In this document: piece after piece, positions 1 to 45,681 of the stretch
Layout: every line of letters begins with the position of its first letter
Numbering within the stretch: the first letter of the stretch is position 1
Source: a bacterium
GTDB lineage: Bacteria; Patescibacteriota; Saccharimonadia; Saccharimonadales; Saccharimonadaceae
Direction of reading: 5' to 3'
Length of the DNA: 45,681 nucleotides
Assembly (NCBI GenBank): GCA_030431855.1
Contig: JAUIII010000001.1
Coordinates: 89,089-134,769, forward strand
The notes under the pieces: generated by a model
What the model was told of the DNA's origin: nothing
Database searches by the model: none
What the model saw: only the letters and a program-made list of their open reading frames with translations
Program-made: the position numbers and the translations under genes

Positions 1-78
1 ACCGTCGCGTTCGGATATTTCTTTTATCATGATGCGCTAAAGAAACAGGGTAATGGAAAACCTCCGCTTACAAGTTAG
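1..78 (+). CDS. 3' end of an upstream gene (partial)
   Basis: Frame 1 is open from the first base to a TAG at 76-78 and gives a 25-residue tail with an aromatic stretch (AFGYFFYHD) and a basic end. It would overlap the xseA start by 26 bases, in line with the overlapping genes downstream. The fragment is too short to identify, and a chance open frame cannot be excluded. Confidence 0.35.
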   Translation, partial: TVAFGYFFYHDALKKQGNGKPPLTS

Positions 79-2564: not shown

Positions 2565-3290
2565 ATGCAAGCGAGGGAGAACGAGTCAGCAGGGGCCAGG
2601 AGTGCCGATATATCATCGGTTGGGTTAGCTGCTCACGAGTTAAAATCACCGCTGGTGCTGCTGCGGCAACTGTCGCTCGAGCTTGCGAGCACCGAACTGA
2701 GTGCAGACGAACATCGGCGAGTGCTGGACCAGCTGCTACACACTACTGAAAAAGCATTGCGCCTAACTAGCGACCTGACTCGGGCCGAGCGTTTGCAGCC
2801 GTCGCTGTTTGAGCTGGCGCCTGTAAATCCAATTAGCGTGTGTGACGACGTGACCTTCGAACTGCAACGCATGTACGCAGCGCATGGACGTAGCTTGAAA
2901 CGCTCGCGTATTCGACACCTGCCACCTGTGGTCGCTAATCGAGATTTGCTGCGCCGAATACTTTTGAATTTTGCCGACAACGCACTGCACTATAGCGACG
3001 AGCAGGGCGCAGTGGAGCTACACGCGCAACTACTACGCGAAAAGGGTATGGTGCGTGTCGGCGTGCGTGATTATGGCCCTGCGGTGTCGCTGAAAAACTG
3101 GCGAGAACTGACCCAGGCAATTGCTAGCACAAAGCCAGTGCATGCTCGGCCGCAAAGTAGTGGACTGGGCATTTACATTGCTCATCAATTTGCGACTGCC
3201 ATGAACGGCCGTATTGGGGCTATTCGTCACCGCGATGGCGCATCGTTTTATGTAGAGTTGCCAATTTCTAAACAATTGTCGCTACTATGA
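2565..3290 (+). CDS. Soluble sensor histidine kinase
   Basis: A 241-residue cytosolic kinase with no membrane segment and almost no sensor region. The HisKA H-box is AAHELKSPL with His24 as the expected phosphorylation site. The HATPase_c domain follows: N-box NFADNALHYS (residues 135-144), G1 DYGP (169-172) and G2 SSGLGIYIAH (198-207). It overlaps the downstream response regulator by 4 bases and is its obvious partner. With no sensor domain, the input must come from a partner protein or from the first roughly 20 residues. A TAAACT box with an upstream TGC (2546-2554) ends 10 nt before the ATG, so the leader would be very short. Confidence 0.88.
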   Translation: MQARENESAGARSADISSVGLAAHELKSPLVLLRQLSLELASTELSADEHRRVLDQLLHTTEKALRLTSDLTRAERLQPSLFELAPVNPISVCDDVTFELQRMYAAHGRSLKRSRIRHLPPVVANRDLLRRILLNFADNALHYSDEQGAVELHAQLLREKGMVRVGVRDYGPAVSLKNWRELTQAIASTKPVHARPQSSGLGIYIAHQFATAMNGRIGAIRHRDGASFYVELPISKQLSLL

Positions 3291-6532: not shown

Positions 6533-7948
6533 ATGAGCACAGAGGTAAAACTAGAAGACATTGTAAGCTTAGCGAAACGCCGAGGTTTTATTTATCAGGG
6601 TAGCGACGTATACGGTGGCCTATCTGGTACGTGGGATTACGGCCCGCTAGGTGTGGCGCTGAAACGCAACATTATGAACCTGTGGTGGCAGACATTTGTA
6701 GAAAACCGCGACGACATGTATGGTGTAGACGCGGCGATATTGATGAACCAAAAGGTGTGGCAGGCAAGTGGCCACACAAAGACATTCACTGACCCAATGG
6801 TGGAATGTGGTAATTGCTCAAACAAGTTTCGCGCAGATAAGATTGACATTTCAAAGTGTCCTTCTTGTGGCAAAGAGAACACATTCAGACCACCAGTCGA
6901 TTTCAATTTAATGTTCAATACGCAAATTGGAGCGAGTTGGGGAAGTATCGAAACTCCAGATGGCCAACACTGGGCTGGTGAACTTACTGCTGTTGAAAAT
7001 AAAACCGGAGAGGAAAAAGCAAAAGTTCCAATCACTGAAGGTGATTCATACAATGGCACAATGATGTTCGAAAAGACTGGTCGTGTTTATCTCCGACCTG
7101 AAACCGCCCAGGGTATTTTTACCAACTACAAAAACGTGCTAGATAGTTTCTACCCGGACTTGCCATTTGGTATTGCGCAGCAGGGTAAGGCATTTCGCAA
7201 CGAAATCAGCCCACGCGATTTCGTCTTCCGTAGCCGAGAGTTCGAGCAAATGGAAATTGAGTATTTTGTACACAAAGATAATTGGCAAGAAGAGTTCAAA
7301 AAGTGGGAAGAGGATATAGAAAAATTTCTTGAGGCACTCGGACTCCCAGAGAATAGTTATGAAGCCGTGGATGTTCCTGCTGAAGATCGAGCGCACTACA
7401 GTGAAAAAACCTTGGACTATGAGTTTAAGTTTCCGCACGGAAAGGACGAATTGCTCGGCCTCGCGTATCGTACCGACTTTGATCTAAAAAATATTGACGA
7501 AAACTCAGGCAAAAGCATGGAATATCGTGTAAAAGGTACTAACGAAACATTTATCCCGCATGTGATAGAACCGAGCTTTGGTGTAGAGCGCGCCCTAATG
7601 GCTGTGCTGACCAGCGCGTACCGTACTGACGAGCTGAATGGCGAACAGCGTATATATTTGGCCCTGCCAGAACATTTGGCCCCTGTAAAATACGCCGTAT
7701 CTCCGCTACTGAAAAACAAGCCAGAGCTAGTAGAAAAAGCCCGCGAAGTGTACCAGATGCTAAAGAAAAAATACGGCGCCGTAATGTGGGATGACAACGG
7801 CAACATAGGTAAACGCTACCGCCGGCAGGATGAAATCGGTACGCCGCATTGTGTGGTGATAGATTTTGAAACGCTAGAGAACAATACCGTCACAGTTCGT
7901 GACCGTGATACGACAGAACAAAAACGTATTGTCCTTGAAGAAATTTAG
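6533..7948 (+). CDS. glyS: Glycyl-tRNA synthetase, dimeric (alpha2) type
   Basis: Class II aminoacyl-tRNA synthetase that charges tRNA-Gly. The start MSTEVKLEDIVSLAKRRGF at 6533 aligns with the normal beginning of the family; the longer frame from 6425 runs through the promoter and is rejected. Visible features are YGGLSGTWDYGPLG, a zinc-binding insertion (CGNCSNKF and CPSCG, near residues 95-120), motif 2 (FRNEISPRDFVFRSREFEQ), motif 3 (EPSFGVERALMAVL) and a C-terminal anticodon-binding domain ending in DRDTTEQKRIVLEEI. At 471 residues it has the usual length of the single-chain bacterial/archaeal-type enzyme. Codons between about 6780 and 7090 are noticeably more T-ending than the flanks. 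Confidence 0.96.
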   Translation: MSTEVKLEDIVSLAKRRGFIYQGSDVYGGLSGTWDYGPLGVALKRNIMNLWWQTFVENRDDMYGVDAAILMNQKVWQASGHTKTFTDPMVECGNCSNKFRADKIDISKCPSCGKENTFRPPVDFNLMFNTQIGASWGSIETPDGQHWAGELTAVENKTGEEKAKVPITEGDSYNGTMMFEKTGRVYLRPETAQGIFTNYKNVLDSFYPDLPFGIAQQGKAFRNEISPRDFVFRSREFEQMEIEYFVHKDNWQEEFKKWEEDIEKFLEALGLPENSYEAVDVPAEDRAHYSEKTLDYEFKFPHGKDELLGLAYRTDFDLKNIDENSGKSMEYRVKGTNETFIPHVIEPSFGVERALMAVLTSAYRTDELNGEQRIYLALPEHLAPVKYAVSPLLKNKPELVEKAREVYQMLKKKYGAVMWDDNGNIGKRYRRQDEIGTPHCVVIDFETLENNTVTVRDRDTTEQKRIVLEEI

Positions 7949-44086: not shown

Positions 44087-44335
44087 ATGCAAAGACCACA
44101 ACCATTTGAGGGAGATTATTCGCATTTAGCAGAACGAGGAGTTCGATTTATTGACGCAGAACAAACGCTAGGCGTGGTAGGTGTCGCAATGACATCAGTC
44201 AGCGTTGAAGCCACTCCGTCGCGTAGGCCAATGCCGCGCCCCGTGGCTGGTCACCCAGAGGCGGATCCGCGCACTCGCGAAACCCACGTTCAGCCTCGCT
44301 ACACGGGCGTTATTTACGACTCAACCACCTACTAG
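44087..44335 (+). CDS. Small Pro/Arg-rich protein of unknown function
   Basis: An 82-residue soluble protein without membrane helix or cysteine. The N-terminal half may fold (FEGDYSHLAERGVRFIDAEQ, TLGVVGVAMTSVSVEATP); the C-terminal half is rich in Pro and Arg (SRRPMPRPVAGHPEADPRTR) and is probably flexible. Not recognised. AAAGGAGAAGG gives a very good ribosome site, and a -35 TTGACA lies 120 nt upstream. It is followed by a 22-codon ORF with its own SD. Confidence 0.55.
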   Translation: MQRPQPFEGDYSHLAERGVRFIDAEQTLGVVGVAMTSVSVEATPSRRPMPRPVAGHPEADPRTRETHVQPRYTGVIYDSTTY

Positions 44336-44371: not shown

Positions 44372-44440
44372 ATGAAACAACCAGGCAAATCACCCAAACA
44401 AAAGCTCGGCGTCGCAGCGCTTGAAGCTAGTAGTCACTAA
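44372..44440 (+). CDS. 22-codon microprotein ORF
   Basis: ATG 44372 after ACAGGAGACAAAC opens MKQPGKSPKQKLGVAALEAS and two more residues, ending at TAA 44438-44440. The SD and spacing are as good as those of real genes. It is basic at the start and helical at the end. The stop overlaps the end of dprA on the other strand by 4 bases. It is probably co-transcribed with the 44087 ORF. Function unknown. Confidence 0.45.
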   Translation: MKQPGKSPKQKLGVAALEASSH

Positions 44441-45294
44441 CGTAGAGTCCACTGGTTCGCGCCGAGCGAACGAATGGTACCGGCGATTTCCAGCATGGTG
44501 AGTGTGGTGGCGAATTCGCTTGAGCCCGCTCCTGTTTTCTGCAACAACGCATCGCCGTCTCGGGTACCTGCCTGTAGCAGCTGTATGATCTCTGTTTCGA
44601 GTGGCGTGCTACCCAGCGCCAAGCTTGCCTGTGGCTGCAATGTATCGGGCGCGATACGCTCGAGTACGTCTGTGTAGCTGGTAATTGGCGTGGCACCTTG
44701 TTTCAGCAGTGCGTTACAGCCAGCGCTCAGAGGGCTGGTAATATTACCTGGTACCACGAAAATCTCTTTCCCTTGCTCTAGCGCATGCGCGGCAGTATTC
44801 AACGTGCCACTTTTAGCCGCGGCTTCGGTAATGATGATGGCATCGGCAAGCCCGCTGACAATGCGATTTCTTTCCAGGAAATAGTGCGGCCTGGCTTCTT
44901 CGTCACGTGCGTATTCGCTCAGAATCGCGCCACCTTTCCCTACGATCTCTTCGGATAGACCTTTGTGCGCAGATGGATATATGCGTGGCAAGCCACAGCC
45001 GAGCACGGCGATAGTGGTCCCGCCTGCCTCTAGCGCACCCCTATGCGCGATACCATCAACACCAAGCGCGAGACCAGATACCACCACTACGCTACGCAGG
45101 GCCAGTTCGTATGCGAGCTGATGGGTAATTTCTCTACCATAGGCAGTGGGTTTTCGCGTGCCGATGATTGCCACAGATGGGCGACGTGTTTCAGGCAATG
45201 TACCGTAGCAATCTAATGTTTTAGGAGCATTAGCAATATTGGTTAATATCTGTAGATAATCTTGTTTCTCTGGAGAGAATGTATTGATTTTCAT
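44437..45294 (-). CDS. dprA: DNA processing protein DprA (Smf)
   Basis: DprA protects incoming single-stranded DNA during transformation and loads RecA on it. The Rossmann-like domain shows VAIIGTRKPTAYGREI, VVVSGLALGVDGIAHRGALEAGGTTIAVLGCGL, IYPSAHKGL, SEYARDEEARPHYFLERNRIVSGL and EAAAKSGTLNTAAHALEQGKEIFVVPG. A C-terminal winged helix follows (LGSTPLETEIIQLLQ to GTIRSLGANQWTLR). The N-terminal SAM-like domain is reduced, so the length of 285 is on the short side. TTGACA-16-TATCAC ends 7 nt before the ATG, a leaderless start. Confidence 0.95.
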   Translation of the reverse strand: MKINTFSPEKQDYLQILTNIANAPKTLDCYGTLPETRRPSVAIIGTRKPTAYGREITHQLAYELALRSVVVVSGLALGVDGIAHRGALEAGGTTIAVLGCGLPRIYPSAHKGLSEEIVGKGGAILSEYARDEEARPHYFLERNRIVSGLADAIIITEAAAKSGTLNTAAHALEQGKEIFVVPGNITSPLSAGCNALLKQGATPITSYTDVLERIAPDTLQPQASLALGSTPLETEIIQLLQAGTRDGDALLQKTGAGSSEFATTLTMLEIAGTIRSLGANQWTLR

Positions 45295-45301
45295 AAAAAA
45301 A

Positions 45302-45329
45302 GTGATAAAAAGTATTGACTTTATGTCAA
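45302..45329 (-). promoter_or_regulatory. dprA promoter
   Basis: On the minus strand TTGACA (45329-45324), 16 bases, TATCAC (45307-45302), then 7 nt to the ATG at 45294. Confidence 0.6.
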
Positions 45330-45343
45330 ATAAGTGCTAATAT
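45315..45343 (+). promoter_or_regulatory. Strong promoter of the edge RNA, interlocked with the dprA promoter
   Basis: TTGACT (45315-45320), exactly 17 bases, TAATAT (45338-45343). The -35 faces the dprA -35 within the palindrome TTGACTTTATGTCAA, so the two promoters cannot easily be used at once. Confidence 0.8.
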
Positions 45344-45349
45344 GGTGCA

Positions 45350-45681
45350 TGATTGGTTGATCTGCGAGGACAACCAAACGCACCTTATACCCCCTATTCT
45401 AACAGAATTCTGGTTCGCCAGAATTCATATGTTAGGTTGTGTATAGTGGCCGCTTGGCAGTAATCTACCCTCCACTTCCATCGGTAAAGGCTTCGGCCGG
45501 AAACACTATACGCATACTAACCCCTTTAACCCTTTTTCATTGGTTTTGTCGTATAAACGACTATCCAGTAGCACATCTGATGTGGGCGCCCACTTTCCGT
45601 GGAGTTATGTGCGAGCGCTTCGTTTGATGAAACCAGGGTGGTTGAAGGGTCAAATGGCCTCAGGTGATGCCCACCCTTACC
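45350..45681 (+). ncRNA. Folded non-coding RNA of unknown family (runs off the window)
   Basis: No gene-like frame exists, but stems are dense. GGTTG/CAACC (about 45355-45375) comes first. Next is CTAACA GAATTCTGG, a TTCG tetraloop and CCAGAATTC ATA TGTTAG (45399-45435), 15 bp with one bulge. GTATAGTG (45441-45448) pairs with CACTATAC (45504-45511) over 8-11 bp, enclosing GGC-TTCG-GCC (45489-45498). GTGGGCGCCCAC (45582-45593) follows. With a strong promoter this looks like an abundant stable RNA. I see no RNase P, tmRNA, SRP, T-box or 16S/23S start signatures. It could also be a long rRNA leader. Confidence 0.55.

Follow-up and report, generated by a model that had tools for sequence, protein, structure and literature searches.

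Large structured RNAs such as OLE, GOLLD and raiA are found in bacteria and have no assigned function. They are free-standing, hundreds of nucleotides long and lineage-restricted, with conserved joining regions. The RNA described here resembles them in all these respects, including a likely pseudoknot, but differs in having no Rfam match, in its two-domain plan with C-rich elements, and in that only its 5′ domain is carried by phages. Other known RNAs resemble it in single features. Staphylococcus RNAIII and other small RNAs with C-rich loops likewise have several such loops, and their terminator hairpin also bears one. In contrast to RNAIII, however, no conserved mRNA complement was found for our RNA among the start regions of half a genome, its terminator loop has a likely internal partner, and its elements are conserved over longer stretches. 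The CsrB/RsmY sponges repeat a short single-stranded motif that suits an RNA-binding protein; here the motif is UACCCYC instead of GGA, is present in two or three copies, and sits in a fixed architecture. Phage imitation of host RNAs is a known idea, and small anti-CRISPR RNAs are phage-encoded trimmed copies of a host RNA, whereas the host RNA in our case is a core chromosomal one and not part of a CRISPR system. In the portions of the open-licence literature available to us, including PMC10633639, PMC8172020, PMC10768705, PMC4508563 and PMC12911398, there was no description of this RNA, although one may have been published elsewhere, nor of any core regulatory RNA of Saccharibacteria.

Locus, promoter and extent of the RNA

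The window (the whole stretch of 45,681 nt analysed) lies at the end of contig C6; the genome measures 830 kb. The initial annotation had placed a structured RNA at its edge, with stable stems, two UUCG loops and no coding potential, and our results bore out each of these points. The first 89 bases of contig C4 exactly repeat the last 89 of the window, and three same-genus genomes (L007, L008, L010) are unbroken across the C6/C4 junction; thus, the RNA runs ~20 bases past the window and is completed by C4. Its total length is ~345 nt, from a predicted start near 45349 to the terminator. The RNA ends in the hairpin GGCCTCAGGT-GATGCCCACCCTT-ACCTGGGGC followed by TTTTT, and a terminator hairpin with a T-run is also found in relatives. 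Extending the contig, as had been recommended, revealed the terminator and then protein genes, with no 16S rRNA, which ruled out an rRNA operon leader. The features of the locus are as follows.

44437..45294, − strand: dprA, divergent neighbour (Pfam DNA_processg_A, 4.2e-71)
45315..45343, + strand: RNA promoter, −35 TTGACT (45315-45320), 17 nt, −10 TAATAT (45338-45343)
45315..45329, no strand: palindrome TTGACTTTATGTCAA over the −35; possible operator, without a dprA −10 at the right distance
45349..45681, + strand, with the last ~20 nt on C4 (L003 90-108): structured RNA, start predicted from the −10
45351..45379, + strand: P1 hairpin (GATTGGTTG / CAACCAAAC), predicted fold
45380..45398, + strand: J element GCACCTTATACCCCCTATT, unpaired, near-invariant, retained in phage miniatures
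45399..45435, + strand: P2 hairpin, CTAAC (45399-45403) / GTTAG (45431-45435), carrying an insertion (stem plus UUCG loop)
45437..45516, + strand: helix P3 (45437-45448 / 45504-45516), enclosing P4 and the UUCG hairpin P5 (45489-45498)
45462..45473, + strand: L4, C-rich loop AATCTACCCTCC of hairpin P4, retained in phage miniatures
45517..45521, + strand: P2′ strand CTAAC, alternative partner of GTTAG 45431-45435, excluding P2
45522..45649, + strand: P6 (45522-45530 / 45641-45649), around the variable central domain, which is here in its long form
45636..45641, + strand: GGGTGG, which probably pairs with the terminator loop in a pseudoknot
45656..45681, + strand: terminator 5′ arm and C-rich loop GCCCACCC (45669-45676); the 3′ arm and T-run are on C4

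Positions 45345-45681 folded at −110.5 kcal/mol on the + strand (z = −3.77), and none of 100 shuffles equaled this value. The reverse strand gave z = −2.83, so fold stability alone cannot settle the strand; promoter, terminator and alignment settle it as +. The two UUCG loops lie in hairpins 45404-45426 and 45489-45498. Only short overlapping ORFs were present, with no conserved frame, and relatives keep the helices while lengths change, as opposed to conserving a reading frame. We concluded that this is a predicted non-coding, free-standing RNA with a sigma-70-type promoter and a terminator of its own. As a side observation, the contigs of G000, G004, G012 and G088 end within or just after the RNA gene, for which strain variation or an insertion site at the 3′ end could be the cause.

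The near-consensus promoter noted earlier (TTGACT-17-TAATAT) is an arrangement kept throughout: TTGACN-16..18-TANNNT lies upstream of the RNA in 100/100 distinct members. Within 582 bases, such sites occurred once, compared to 1.0 in shuffles (no excess). The palindrome reported over the −35 is exact at 45315-45329. TTGAC-N5-GTCAA occurs once in the window vs. 0.04 expected, and TTGAC-N3..8-GTCAA is kept in 48 of the 100 members. A half-site array, TGTCAA-N6-TTGACA-N3-TGTCAA (+ strand), was often seen around the palindrome in part of the family. Either the palindrome or the array could be the operator of some regulator.

The initial annotation had gone further, proposing that the −35 of the RNA faces that of dprA in this palindrome, so that synthesis of the RNA and expression of dprA should compete; we considered such competition as a possible role of the locus. 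The 48 members that keep the palindrome, and the divergent dprA upstream of the RNA in 51/62 loci, fit this proposal. However, a minus-strand TTGAC with TANNNT at 16-18 nt was found in just one of these 48; because the other 47 have no −10 at the right distance, a dprA promoter on the palindrome is unsupported, and the palindrome itself is absent from 52/100 members. Moreover, dprA was not detected beside the RNA in 11/62 loci. In six of those 11, the topA start is 231-663 nt from the RNA's conserved element, leaving no room for dprA, and the RNA persists there. We concluded that dprA is not needed for presence of the RNA, and we consider promoter competition highly improbable as its role. Tn-seq in Southlakia epibionticum did not place dprA among the fitness genes (PMC10633639). 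Between topA and dprA there are also two small ORFs, at 44087-44335 (+) and 44372-44440 (+), convergent with dprA; they encode 82 aa (MQRPQPFEGDY...) and 22 aa (MKQPGKSPKQK...), and each is preceded by a purine-rich ribosome-binding site.

Two domains, covariation and distribution

The RNA has two domains. The 5′ domain consists of P1, the unpaired ACCUUAUACCCCC, P2, and P3/P4 with the CUACCCUCC loop, and the 3′ domain consists of P6, a variable centre and the terminator hairpin. The central part takes either a short form (GCGGACCUC...GUGAGGUGGGUCACGC) or a longer branched form, and the RNA in the window has the long form. For the alignment, 128 parsed loci were reduced to 100 distinct members; the anchor parser failed on 50/178 loci, which were cut by contig ends or were variants outside its patterns. 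Pair counts used 97 rows (L121, L122 and L030 were left out for lack of GTTAG), and the count for P2 used 94, as no P2 5′ strand was found in L098, L117 and L118.

Covariance among relatives, a check proposed with the initial annotation, supported the fold. Helix P3 showed changes on both sides at 12 of its 13 positions; its cells were paired in 84.5% of cases vs. 34-59% with slid partners, and much of the unpaired remainder came from a purine-A mismatch that is conserved at position one. P6 was paired in all cells, and two of its pairs had double changes. The L4 loop is 11-12 nt long with the core CCUCCAC, and its stem paired at 5.06 of six positions vs. 4.18-4.44 with exchanged partners. J and L4 share the motif UACCCYC.

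The sequence GUUAG could pair with the upstream CUAAC (P2) in all 94 rows scored and with the downstream CUAAY (P2′) in 97/97, the latter with one double change; GUUGG opposite CCAAU in L096 is a double change favouring P2′. Where sequence is inserted between the arms of P2, it folds into stems that lengthen this helix, and in the window's own RNA the P2 and P2′ states are 3 kcal/mol apart. Two mutually exclusive pairings that are both always possible suggest a switch, but they may be folding intermediates instead of a regulatory device. A pseudoknot with the terminator loop is likely from the placement of its partners. GGUGGG/GGGUGG, facing CCCACC in the terminator loop, either immediately precedes the P6 3′ strand or overlaps its start in 86/100 members, and is inside the central domain in eight more (L019 was misread in this tally), and is missing in L101. 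The partners do not covary because the loop hardly varies, and pairing at the +1 slide register reached 95%.

To survey the distribution we relied on R1, a covariance model covering the 5′ domain (27 sequences, 152 positions). R1 matched 179 of 246 genomes of the order, in 107 of 132 genera, with one match per genome in all listed positives except G088, which had two. The misses listed within the order are in three genera of the window's own family (g2, g11, g12), and another 47 genomes of the order without a match fall outside that list. In a phylum-wide draw of 379 genomes, R1 was found in 24, all from the 32 genomes of the order included; it matched none of the 347 genomes outside the order, five of which belong to the same class. 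A DNA-similarity search matched 33/61 genomes. The 24-mer GCACCTTATACCCCCTATTCTAAC was found in 69 stretches among 84,980 species genomes, under titles that were Saccharibacteria-type, Patescibacteria or unassigned. Three members of the same family, L121, L122 and L030, have a strongly changed RNA (R1 E-values 0.0011 for L122 and 0.0028 for L030; L121 was not found). They keep P6 and the terminator, have a P4 loop of ACCUCC instead of ACCCUCC, and have lost J, which is therefore not needed everywhere. Judged by these searches, this structured RNA of ~345 nt is a single-copy core element of one order of Saccharibacteria.

The initial annotation could match the RNA to no known class, and neither could we. 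A search of Rfam 15 (4227 families) returned no match above curated cut-offs for the window or for the loci of 20 diverse relatives; matches of the RNA region itself were at chance level (E 2.5-8.9). A known Rfam RNA, for example rnpB, had been named beside an rRNA leader as an alternative identity, and neither was found at this locus. RNase P RNA (RF00010) and tmRNA (RF00023) did not match at the locus, and the genome has its own copies at C26:15018-15364 and C26:18182-18578, respectively. The 6S RNA model (RF00013) found nothing in the window or the rest of the genome, with only 5/14 controls positive. Because it fits no catalogued family, we regard the RNA as categorically new.

SRP RNA deserved separate attention, as it too would be a single-copy core RNA. 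A hidden SRP RNA was attractive while that RNA was missing: models RF00169 and RF01854 were positive in 0/41 and 0/40 genomes (controls, 11 and 6 of 14), and the S-domain motif was found in 1/41. The candidate was rejected once the Ffh M domain proved absent from all 41 genomes, with 14/14 controls positive. The SRP seems to have been lost altogether in this lineage, so the RNA is not a hidden SRP RNA. SRP loss has already been described for Parcubacteria (PMC4508563).

Miniatures of the 5′ domain in phages

Scans of IMG/VR revealed four viral contigs of 33-41 kb (L195, L196, L197, L199) that carry a miniature of the 5′ domain of ~100 nt. Each miniature combines ACCUUAUACCCCCUAU and a P2 hairpin with a P3/P4 hairpin that bears the CUACCCUCCAC loop; an A-rich 3′ bulge is present as well, and the end is U-rich. 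Three of the four have a 5′ hairpin upstream. P6 and the 3′ domain are absent from all four. Because phages carry the 5′ domain alone, it is a self-contained module. R1 E-values of the miniatures were 1.2e-12, 3.9e-8, 4.2e-9 and 1.6e-9, and the L195 miniature folded with z = −4.04. The P3 arms share 2-4/7 bases between phages; pairing was 7/7 within each phage, vs. an average of 3.6/7 when arms were combined across phages. A reversed 17-mer used as a control found one viral contig, compared to four with the real 17-mer. In L195, L196 and L197 the neighbours are phage genes (RecT, endolysins, NinG, exonuclease VIII); for L199, 1.2 kb was read. We infer the hosts of the four contigs from the RNA alone.

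A fifth viral contig, L194, carries a full-length copy of the RNA with its promoter; the 3′ domain was thus found in hosts and in this one viral contig. L194 also encodes RecT, FtsK-like and methyltransferase genes and, at 2839-3084 (−), a KH protein of the KhpA/KhpB type (PF13083, 9.8e-16). Because the RNA copy is near the contig end, there is a small chance that it belongs to a host flank. A search with the L194 KH protein did not turn up a close relative on any other viral contig.

Searches of phage records with the L195 miniature, and of plasmid records with the window's own 5′ domain, found no similar sequence. No miniature on a host chromosome was seen among the loci screened before L197 and L199 were added; the four entries of that screen were the miniatures L195 and L196, a divergent full form (L083), and a locus cut by its contig end (L173). 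Contig L198, a phage contig with a portal protein (R1 E 0.014), was left out of the miniature count. At ~7020-7140 (−) it has the J element and, nearby upstream, UACCCUCC in reversed order, followed by a short terminator-like hairpin, and it is possibly a permuted mimic. L242 was rejected as a chance match inside a coding frame.

Possible partners of the 5′ domain

What hosts and phages have in common is the pair of exposed C-rich stretches, together with their supporting hairpins, and this points to one conserved partner. We tested whether this partner could be reached by base pairing, using the start regions of 401 ORFs from half of genome G005 (L201-L220), the 16S rRNA of G130, tmRNA and RNase P RNA. 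For J, the best complements were located where lexA, a pilin gene and dnaA start, with values that equalled or went beyond the minima of shuffles. The complement was not kept in the orthologues that could be read, the window genome's lexA and the dnaA of G178; a second dnaA, in G126, is at a contig start without upstream bases. Complements in 16S rRNA, RNase P RNA and tmRNA were no better than those of shuffled motifs, apart from J against RNase P RNA, which gave a weak signal (−15.9 vs. a minimum of −15.2 in 20 shuffles).

These results bear on the idea that the RNA acts in trans as an antisense regulator in the manner of RNAIII, its C-rich loops pairing with G-rich ribosome-binding sites to block translation and the miniatures doing likewise on host messages. 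The L4 core is anti-Shine-Dalgarno-like, CCUCC is present even in divergent members, and the lexA, pilin and dnaA complements point the same way. But the lexA and dnaA complements were not kept in the one orthologue of each that could be read, and there was no excess for 16S rRNA or tmRNA; these results count against it, and J is conserved over 13-17 nt, more than seed pairing needs. In the half of G005 scanned, GGAGG precedes only 26/330 ORFs and GGAGGG three, and the 6-mer seen most often just before start codons is TATAAT, which hints at frequent leaderless mRNAs in the lineage. The scarcity of GGAGG and the TATAAT at many starts speak against a general anti-Shine-Dalgarno role, and we judge the antisense explanation to be rather unlikely. 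A cis-acting leader, a riboswitch or attenuator of the downstream gene, could make use of the terminator hairpin at the RNA's end, which could be regulated. The genes downstream vary among relatives, however, pth is convergent there in 41/62 loci (many loci being too short to reach it), and the 5′ domain is a separate unit in phages; we give the leader almost no credence.

RNA polymerase is a common target of phages, which would suit a regulator that binds it in place of 6S RNA, with the miniature steering transcription for the phage. The missing 6S match in the genome and a promoter of the abundant-RNA type in all 100 members agree with such a role, but the RNA lacks a long bulged hairpin like that of 6S RNA, and with the 6S model detecting so few controls the missing match is weak evidence. 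We therefore hold this possibility to be very doubtful. We put equally little weight on a part in an anti-phage response, with the miniatures as anti-defence decoys. The conservation of contact elements in the four separate phage miniatures would fit that role, but the RNA gene belongs to the core set, is inherited vertically and sits in a fixed place, unlike mobile defence systems, and no defence gene is tied to it.

The explanation that we prefer, to which we give about an even chance, is that a core RNA shows the C-rich motifs of its 5′ domain to some conserved factor of the host, which is probably a protein, and that phages imitate this domain. The pairing tests on this set of RNAs and start regions, having failed, make a protein a likelier partner than an mRNA, and it is mainly by that route that we arrive at a protein. 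In this model, the 5′ domain would display its two copies of UACCCYC to a single factor conserved in the hosts, for which an RNA-binding protein is most likely, and the exchange of P2 for P2′ would open or close the platform and serve as the host's means of control. The miniatures have no downstream CUAAY and thus no P2′ exchange; they may be decoys for the platform's factor or may recruit the same factor for the phage. A KH protein would be the first candidate partner, with the link to KhpA coming from one contig, L194. The more specific version, in which a global RNA-binding protein of the KH type (KhpA/KhpB-like) docks switchably on the 5′ domain of this new order-specific core RNA through its paired UACCCYC motifs and the 100-nt phage RNAs are decoys, is distinctly unlikely as it stands. 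If it held, the viral contig with the whole RNA would supply its own KhpA, and host and phage would contest a global post-transcriptional regulator.

Saccharibacteria include cultured, transformable epibionts (PMC10633639). A once-per-genome RNA across an order is a candidate for an essential or near-essential component of these bacteria, and the phage miniatures could be used as they are, as minimal ligands with which to isolate its partner. The miniatures may also be markers that tie anonymous phage contigs to the Saccharibacteria host group.
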